Part shown: positions 60,378 through 62,063 of the stretch, piece after piece
Numbering within the stretch: position 1 is the stretch's first letter
Layout of the letters: each line of letters opens with the position of its first letter
From: Halorubrum vacuolatum
GTDB taxonomy: Archaea; Halobacteriota; Halobacteria; Halobacteriales; Haloferacaceae
Assembly: GCF_900188065.1 (NCBI RefSeq)
Contig: NZ_FZNQ01000003.1
Location: forward strand, 186,001-250,000
Reading direction: 5' to 3'
DNA: 64,000 nt
The notes under the pieces: generated by a model
Database searches by the model: none
Told to the model about the DNA's origin: nothing
The model's input: only the letters and a program-made list of their open reading frames with translations
Made by a program: the position numbers and the translations under genes

Positions 60378-61436
60378 TCAGACCAGCCGCTCGGCGATAC
60401 GGGCCGCCCCTTCGGCGGCCGCCGTCGCGGGGTCCTCGGGTGAGACCACGTCGACGTCGCGGTCGAGCTCTTCGCTCAGACGGTTCTCGAATTCGTCGGT
60501 GAGCCCAGGGATACATGCCATCCCGCCGGTGACGGCGATGGGCCGTCCGAGCGCCAGCTGGTAGGGCTTCATGTGGTCGTTGGCGAGTTCGGGAAGGAAC
60601 TCGTTGGCGACCACGTTCACCGCGTCGTCGATGTAGCGGTCGACGGGGTCGCGTACGCCTCGGTCGACGGTGAATTCGTGGCTGCCGCCGCCGGGCTGCT
60701 GGACGACGTCCGTGAACGGCTCGAACCCGTAGACGTCGGCGTGGTCCTCTTTGTACTCCCGGGCAGTCGTTCGGTCGATGTGGACGCGTCCCTGCGTCTC
60801 CTCTTCGACCGCCGAGACGATCCAGCGGTCGACCTCGTTACCCGTGACCGAGCCGGTCGAAAACGGCGAGAGCTGCTCGCCGCGACGGTACGCACAGGCT
60901 TCGAGCGTCGTCGAGCCCATGTTGATCGAGACGAACACCTCATCGACGGCCTCGAGGCCGTCGCCGTAGGCGGGGATCGCGCCACAGAGCGATTCGGGGA
61001 AGCTCCGTGTCTCCGCCTTGCCGACCGTCGACTCCTCGATGACGGTCTTGAGGTTGTTGACCCCGGTTTCGTTGTCGATAGTGGGAACGGCATAGACGAC
61101 GACGCTCTCTTCGGGCACGTTGTGTGCGCTCACGAGCGCTTCGAAGAACCGTTTGGCGTCCGCGACGCTCGCGTCGTCCTCAGGTAACCCCGACCGAAGC
61201 ATAAACCGTACCGTGTCGGGATACTCGGTGGCGGCATCGTGTCCGTACAGGACTCGCTCCTCGCCGGTGATGGCGTCCTCGTAGGTCGCCAAACAGGTGA
61301 GCGTCATCTGTCGTTCACGGCCGCCGCGGCCGTCGGGTAGGTCGAGCACCGTCCGGGTGCTGCCGAGTTTGACGCCGACCGGGGCCGGCTCGTCGATACC
61401 ATCGAAGTCAGTGGTGTCGTCTGTGTCGTCGCTCAT
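60378..61436 (-). CDS. Actin/Hsp70-fold ATPase, probable salactin
   Basis: The 352-residue protein has the actin-fold phosphate-1 loop VGVKLGSTRTVLDL at the start, phosphate-2 FVSINMGSTTLEACAYRRGE (about 164-183), and an adenosine-site region IAVTGGMACIPGLTDEFENRLSEEL (about 300-324). An acidic start (about residues 1-18) is typical of haloarchaea. It is not Hsp70 (too short, no C-terminal domains). Salactin is a described haloarchaeal actin homologue. The position, about 35 kb from ftsZ2, fits the Halobacterium map as I remember it. The name is probable, not proven. Its start overlaps the FlaD/E-domain gene by four bases, so they are coupled. Confidence 0.85.
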   Translation of the reverse strand: MSDDTDDTTDFDGIDEPAPVGVKLGSTRTVLDLPDGRGGRERQMTLTCLATYEDAITGEERVLYGHDAATEYPDTVRFMLRSGLPEDDASVADAKRFFEALVSAHNVPEESVVVYAVPTIDNETGVNNLKTVIEESTVGKAETRSFPESLCGAIPAYGDGLEAVDEVFVSINMGSTTLEACAYRRGEQLSPFSTGSVTGNEVDRWIVSAVEEETQGRVHIDRTTAREYKEDHADVYGFEPFTDVVQQPGGGSHEFTVDRGVRDPVDRYIDDAVNVVANEFLPELANDHMKPYQLALGRPIAVTGGMACIPGLTDEFENRLSEELDRDVDVVSPEDPATAAAEGAARIAERLV

Positions 61437-61915
61437 GGGTGTTCACTCGCACACGAAACGAGCCGGACGAGGGAGACGAGGCTGATCCGATGGTCGGCGG
61501 GGGTGAACGGCCGATCGTGCCGCGGTGGCTCGTAGCCGGGAAGCCGGCGTGTGAGCGTCTTCGCGACCGCCGGGGTTATCCACCCGATCTCGGCGTAGTA
61601 CGACAGCGCGTCGCGGCTCCTGAGGTGGCCGCCGACGTCGACGAGGTAGCCGAGCCAGTCGGCGATCTCGTGTTCCGCCGCCGGCGAACTCGGCACCGCC
61701 GTGAGATACGGCCGTTCGCCGTCGGTGACCTTCCGCAAGTTACGCTGACGTAACAGGATCTCGGTGAACGCGGCCGAGCGTGCCGCCTGCTCGGCTCGGT
61801 TCCGATTCGGTAAACGGAGCGGCCGCTCCCGAGGCGCTCCATCGGCGGTCGCTCGCGTTCCTCCCGCGAGCGACCGCAGCTCCCGTACGTCGTAGTGCCG
61901 TGGATTCAGACTCAT
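61433..61915 (-). CDS. Archaellum FlaD/E-domain protein
   Basis: The 160-residue protein has the Arch_fla_DE pattern: RPYLTAVPSSPAAEHEIADWLGYLVDVGGHLRSRDALSYYAEIGWITPAV. The conserved PYL, WL-YLV, AL-YY and IGWI positions are all visible. In true ArlD/ArlE this domain lies in the cytosolic part of the archaellum motor near the polar cap. No other archaellum gene is near, so this is a stand-alone paralogue. A basic, low-complexity N-terminus precedes it. It is the first gene of an operon with the actin-fold gene (ATGA overlap). No function is established to my knowledge. Confidence 0.83.
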   Translation of the reverse strand: MSLNPRHYDVRELRSLAGGTRATADGAPRERPLRLPNRNRAEQAARSAAFTEILLRQRNLRKVTDGERPYLTAVPSSPAAEHEIADWLGYLVDVGGHLRSRDALSYYAEIGWITPAVAKTLTRRLPGYEPPRHDRPFTPADHRISLVSLVRLVSCASEHP

Positions 61916-62063
61916 GTTCCGTCCGTCGTTCGCGTCCGTACCGGAGACGTTTCGCGCCCGCTATATGAGGATTTGCCTTCGAGTATCGAATCTGATATCC
62001 CAGTAGGATGTGGGCCTCACGGCGAGGATAGCATCGCGTCGCTCATCGGTGGGTATGCCCGTC

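Follow-up and report, generated by a model that had tools for sequence, protein, structure and literature searches.

We found that the gene for salactin, a dynamically unstable actin, is a conserved neighbor of a gene whose product is very probably the archaellum protein ArlD (FlaD), and that the two lie immediately side by side in 70 of the 89 salactin-bearing haloarchaeal genomes in our survey (determined from fetched loci and their coordinates). Both protein families were already known; the novelty lies in the conservation of the pair and in the assignment of its second member as ArlD, neither of which we found in any paper searched. It is highly likely that arlD and salactin are functionally linked in some way. 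The best explanation of the data as a whole, to which we assign a probability of roughly 0.45, is that salactin filaments are anchored or nucleated by ArlD at the polar motor and in turn organize the motility apparatus of the pole or hand it on. The gene link is well supported, whereas we infer the contact between ArlD and salactin, the anchoring or nucleation, and the motility cargo.

Results

An Overlapping Gene Pair Encodes Salactin and a FlaD/E-Domain Protein

The two genes lie near one end of the window, by which we mean the whole 64,000-nt stretch of Halorubrum vacuolatum DNA that was analyzed (Table 1). The sequence-only reading had described open reading frames of 160 and 352 residues joined by an ATGA overlap, and we located both frames on the minus strand, where the overlap of the arlD stop codon (TGA, 61433–61435) with the salactin start codon (ATG, 61434–61436) can be read directly. 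At other Halorubrum loci, the two genes likewise overlap or abut. The ATGA overlap is consistent with translational coupling of arlD and salactin.

Table 1. Features of the arlD-salactin locus in the window, and survey loci with a ParA-CheW gene pair
Feature	Position or loci	Strand	Description and basis
Salactin gene	60378..61436	-	352 aa, actin-fold ATPase; Pfam Salactin (PF25229) 587.7 bits (cut-off 27.1; E = 8e-177); curated NCBIfam salactin equivalog NF053533 574.6 bits (cut-off 400)
arlD (flaD), very probable assignment	61433..61915	-	160 aa; PF04659 57.1 bits
ATGA shared by the stop codon of arlD and the start codon of salactin	61433..61436	-	direct sequence reading
23-nt leader TACGGACGCGAACGACGGACGGA	61918..61940	-	immediately upstream of arlD; alignment of nine upstream regions
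TATA-box-like CATATA	61962..61967	-	conserved distance upstream of arlD; Halorubrum alignment
ParA and CheW genes in divergent orientation to arlD, whether or not salactin is present	L068, L069, L071, L075, L088, L089, L096-L098, L102, L103, L182-L185, L188

By both profiles, the product of 60378–61436 is salactin. In a control search, Haloferax volcanii also gave a match above the low Pfam cut-off for salactin, and this match is probably volactin. An AlphaFold model of the window protein (pLDDT 89.9) has the actin/MreB fold, and its best solved structural matches were MreB/Mbl and MamK (VIA-align Z ~31 over ~310 residues, rmsd ~3.2); MamK has been reported to be the closest to salactin among actin families (PMC10746226). 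The salactin of Halobacterium salinarum (VNG0153C) belongs to the same family by the equivalog cut-off and has a similar length and a disordered, charged N terminus, but it is not encoded beside arlD. The phosphate motifs, which had been called intact, proved to be typical of salactins and noncanonical, with K23 (GVKLGST) and N172 (NMGST) invariant among salactins. We take these two residues to occupy the phosphate-loop positions of Asp in MreB and actin. Salactin is nevertheless reported to polymerize with ATP.

The nine aligned Halorubrum regions upstream of arlD have the 23-nt leader in nearly invariant form, although the upstream bases that flank it vary. The leader has one exact match in each of four genomes (G000, which contains the window, G016, G020, and G027) and none in G026, a genome that lacks the arlD-salactin pair; when we looked in these five genomes for a shared regulon, the arlD copy was the only match. 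CATATA is the probable promoter of a predicted two-gene operon, and the leader, CATATA, and the ATGA overlap together fit a predicted single transcript with coupled translation.

The FlaD/E-Domain Protein Is Very Probably ArlD

The sequence-only reading had seen a FlaD/E domain in a stand-alone protein, and had proposed a profile check of the domain. The domain passed the Arch_fla_DE profile (PF04659; score 57.1 bits, cut-off 21, E = 1.8e-15), but the protein is not a novel stand-alone one and is very probably the ArlD of its genome. Where haloarchaeal genomes have FlaD/E genes, there are usually two proteins that match PF04659: one is short, and the other is the long ArlCE, which combines FlaC with FlaD/E. 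The genome that contains the window has two matches, ArlCE on contig C22 and the product of 61433–61915, which is its sole short FlaD/E protein. The arl cluster on C22 has the order arlCE-F-G-H-I-J, with ArlCE at its head; arlD is absent from this cluster and sits on another contig, and it lies outside the arl cluster in most salactin genomes. The protein has an N-terminal NPxxYDxxELR motif followed by a variable linker, a helix, and a C-terminal FlaD/E domain. Halobacterium FlaD (L170) has the same start, and Y8, D9, L13, and R14 are invariant in the 40 proteins with the motif, Halobacterium L170 included. A tree computed from a small number of columns, in which support reached just 83%–85%, placed Halobacterium FlaD among the salactin-linked proteins. 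We use the name ArlD because the genome encodes no other short FlaD/E protein, because the arl cluster has no D, and because the N-terminal motif is that of Halobacterium FlaD. ArlD of Halobacterium salinarum shares both the FlaD/E domain and the motif and is likewise present as one copy alongside one ArlCE per genome, but its gene adjoins arlCE in the arl cluster, whereas arlD of the window is found with salactin instead.

We rejected the alternative that the protein is an extra paralog beside a normal ArlD, because the genome of the window and most of the surveyed genomes have a single short FlaD/E protein. The exceptions are G180 and G263, in which a second D of the Haloferax type is present. 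Haloferax-type ArlD (L189 7632–8033, L191, and L192) is encoded behind arlJ and lacks the N-terminal motif. Judged by motif and gene position, there are two kinds of ArlD in haloarchaea, and the distinction matters because most of the cell biology of ArlD was done in Haloferax. The N-terminal motif is kept in genomes without salactin, which rules it out as a salactin-specific binding peptide and counts against a salactin-specific contact through it. In a structural model of ArlD, core residues 78–158 had a pLDDT of ~90; in a fold search with this model, no PDB match improved on E = 1.9 or Z = 4.8, which offered no lead, and a missing match does not amount to a new fold.

ArlCDE is the switch ring of the archaellum motor; its binding partners include CheF and ArlH, and it may be in contact with the polar cap (PMC8978795, PMC9126983). 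From work in Halobacterium and Haloferax, ArlD is known to be polar, to bind ArlCE, ArlH, and CheF, and to be needed for motility (PMC2666748, PMC8978795, PMC11588486). Halobacterium cells in which FlaD is deleted have few archaella and are hardly motile (PMC2666748), and the polar position of ArlD-GFP in Haloferax depends on MinD2 and MinD4 (PMC11588486).

arlD and Salactin Are Kept Together

We surveyed 233 haloarchaeal genomes of the order that were at least 90% complete. A profile search found salactin in 89; a 90th match was weak, fell below the cut-off, and was left out of the count. All 89 carry a FlaD/E gene (PF04659), compared with 92 of the 144 genomes without salactin (Fisher 3e-13, a figure that overstates the association because species are not independent). 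A count of co-occurrence had been proposed from the sequence, and it showed the pair to be common: arlD and salactin are immediate neighbors in 37 of 37 salactin genomes in the Haloferacaceae, 32 of 41 in the Haloarculaceae, the single genome of f11, and none of the 10 in the Halobacteriaceae (family names of coded groups were read from named relatives among the loci). The pair was present in 75 of the first 76 loci, which represent several genera. We conclude from this count and from the 70 genomes with adjacent genes that the pairing is not due to chance.

The two genes are mostly in tandem, but they are divergent in G220 (L109) and convergent in G180 (L105). We clustered the neighbors encoded within ~4 kb of salactin at 106 loci; at the BLAST threshold applied, 84 of these loci had a member of the FlaD/E family, and the family that came next was present at 29. 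The flanks of the pair are not conserved even within Halorubrum. The genes are apart in eight Haloarculaceae genomes and in the Halobacteriaceae; in G217, they are on the same strand with 5 kb between them.

Presence and absence are also linked within the Haloferacaceae. A motif-bearing ArlD occurs in all 37 salactin genomes and appears to be absent from the 14 genomes without salactin, of which five have no PF04659 match, four (G026, G167, G181, and G230) have ArlCE and the archaellum ArlI but, by profile search, an ArlD of neither type, and five have two matches. The D of G113, the one of these five that was read, is of the Haloferax type, and the other four are alike by match count only. 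In G001, a Halorubrum without salactin, the archaellum ArlI is missing as well. ArlD without salactin is found in f17, f12, and other genomes. Because every surveyed haloarchaeal genome with salactin has FlaD/E genes and ArlD also occurs without salactin, haloarchaeal salactin seems to need the FlaD/E system, and not vice versa. In one genome (G235, L114–L116), a minimum of three complete salactin genes and one further, partial copy are accompanied by one FlaD/E gene and no archaellum ATPase. In hypha-forming haloarchaea, archaella are reported to have been lost and a single MreB-like family to have expanded (PMC10067837).

Salactin Occurs in Archaellum and Chemotaxis Neighborhoods

The arl operon of G192 (L169, 5939–18524) has the order arlCE-arlF-arlG-salactin-arlCE-arlH-salactin-arlCE-arlH-arlI-arlJ, and both of its salactins exceed the equivalog cut-off. 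With its two salactin, two arlH, and three arlCE-like genes, this operon shows an internal duplication in which salactin is included. The order cheD-arlD-salactin is found in Halogeometricum and in several further Haloferacaceae (L076, L120–L122, and L124–L127), with archaellins within 5 kb at some of the loci. In the Haloarculaceae, genes for a ParA-family ATPase and then a CheW-domain protein are divergent from arlD-salactin, and this ParA-CheW pair remains with arlD at loci from which salactin has moved off (Table 1); in G065, a ParA-CheW pair lies within the arl cluster. The arl cluster of G180 and of G263 is of the Haloferax type and includes a D, and yet both genomes keep arlD at salactin. 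The suggestion, made from the sequence, that the FlaD/E-domain protein links the filament to the pole or the archaellum thus has strong genomic support, from salactin within an arl operon, the cheD-arlD-salactin order, the ParA-CheW pair, and the restriction of haloarchaeal salactin to genomes with FlaD/E genes.

Relatives of salactin are also found outside the haloarchaea, in genomes that we tentatively label methanogen-like and Archaeoglobi-like. None of these relatives has a FlaD/E neighbor, and 5 of the 14 are in genomes without any FlaD/E gene. At the Archaeoglobi-like loci (L204–L213), the salactin-like gene is followed on the same strand by a gene for a coiled-coil protein of 170–245 aa at 9 of 10 loci and then by one for a ParA/MinD-family ATPase at 8, with no FlaD/E gene nearby. 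Because these two genes adjoin the salactin relatives, the combination of an actin, a small adaptor, and a ParA-type ATPase may be the older theme, into which ArlD would have been recruited in haloarchaea.

Discussion

We propose that arlD and salactin form one functional unit, encoded in Halorubrum by a two-gene operon with overlapping frames. ArlD is part of the ArlCDE switch ring beneath the polar archaellum motor; at the motor or in the polar cap, it would anchor and nucleate salactin, and the filaments would consequently grow from the pole. By assembling and collapsing, they would help to keep the polar motility and chemosensory apparatus in place, to space it, or to share it out between the old pole and the new one, and ParA/MinD ATPases would act together with the filaments in this task. 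A functional unit is supported by the persistence of the pair in tandem, divergent, and convergent order while the next neighbor family reaches only 29 of 106 loci; by its arl and che context (the G192 operon, cheD-arlD-salactin, ParA-CheW, and the retention of arlD at salactin in G180 and G263); and by the FlaD/E genes of all 89 salactin genomes together with the linked fate of the two genes in the Haloferacaceae. Published observations also favor it, namely the growth of salactin filaments from the poles and their closeness to MamK (PMC10746226) and the polar, MinD-dependent position of ArlD-GFP (PMC11588486). We hold more tentatively the full version of this proposal, in which the motility pole of archaea has salactin for its cytoskeleton and filaments nucleated by the ArlD-containing motor ring grow and collapse to position, space, or hand on archaella and chemosensory arrays at division, with the DNA phenotype of the deletion as a further or indirect effect.

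That phenotype counts against a motility cargo. Dynamically unstable salactin filaments, growing and shrinking from the poles, are known only from Halobacterium (PMC10746226). A salactin deletion in Halobacterium salinarum caused no defect of motility or shape in rich medium, but in low phosphate, the mutant lost viability and partitioned DNA unevenly, giving cells that looked anucleate (PMC10746226). Salactin may thus be a chromosome-segregation actin, as published, for which the motor marks the pole and ArlD is only the polar anchor, with DNA as the cargo. We consider this reading, the chief rival, less probable than the motility proposal. It fits the published phenotype better than the motility proposal does, and it could draw on the ParA-family ATPases near arlD-salactin in the Haloarculaceae and on the ParA/MinD gene that follows the salactin-like gene in Archaeoglobi-like genomes. 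The CheW, cheD, and arl context suits it less well, since the ParA encoded near arlD has a chemosensory protein, CheW, as its partner and salactin of G192 lies inside an arl operon. Further points against it are that no surveyed haloarchaeal salactin genome lacks FlaD/E genes and that the flanks of the pair have no centromere-like repeats. The unlinked genes of the Halobacteriaceae (0 of 10 adjacent), the lack of an archaellum ATPase in G235, and the outside relatives, which have no FlaD/E neighbor and in part no FlaD/E gene, count against the motility proposal and the segregation reading alike.

It is improbable that salactin has no positioning role and regulates ArlD or the ArlCDE ring in motor assembly or switching. 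The overlap of the two genes, the insertion of salactin between arlG and arlH in G192, and the binding of CheF by the ArlCDE switch (PMC9126983) would suit such a regulator, but long, dynamically unstable filaments would be unusual for one, motility is unchanged in the Halobacterium deletion, and salactin homologs occur in genomes without FlaD/E genes. Least probable of all is a historical accident kept by inertia between proteins of unrelated roles, since the separation of the genes in the Halobacteriaceae and in eight Haloarculaceae genomes and the frequency of ArlD without salactin elsewhere are outweighed by a pair that stays while its flanking genes turn over, that outlasts inversions, replacement of the arl cluster, and insertion into the arl operon, and whose members are present or absent together in the Haloferacaceae.

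The proposed role of arlD and salactin resembles, in part, that of several known systems. The filament of the magnetosome actin MamK was among the best structural matches of the salactin model (Z 31.1), but its cargo differs from that of salactin, and we know of no FlaD/E partner for it. In ParMRC plasmid segregation, too, one operon encodes a dynamically unstable actin and a small partner; the system differs in that the partner of salactin is an archaellum protein and, to our knowledge, not a ParR of any kind. A search beside the operon for ParMRC-type, centromere-like direct repeats found only scattered, degenerate repeats, most of them in coding DNA, and no iteron array. The ParC/ParP system that anchors chemosensory arrays in Vibrio uses a ParA-family ATPase and a CheW-domain protein, as found beside arlD in the Haloarculaceae, and MinD4 and MinD2 of Haloferax position the motility apparatus at the pole, as proposed here for arlD-salactin. 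We know of no actin in either system.

We found no link between FlaD/ArlD and an actin in the literature covered by PMC (subscription papers and preprints lie outside it), in agreement with the sequence-only reading, which knew of no description of the pairing. The founding study of salactin reported poor synteny within Halobacterium and proposed a role in DNA, and the part of its text available to us mentions neither FlaD nor the archaellum (PMC10746226). It saw no informative synteny because it was done in Halobacterium, which belongs to the one family in which the link is broken. The adjacency of salactin and arlD suggests that this cytoskeleton and the machinery for swimming cooperate at the pole. 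It bears on what anchors salactin at the pole, what cargo the filaments carry, and how polar archaella are placed and inherited in haloarchaea, and a conserved pair of a dynamically unstable actin gene and an archaellum switch gene makes all three questions testable together.
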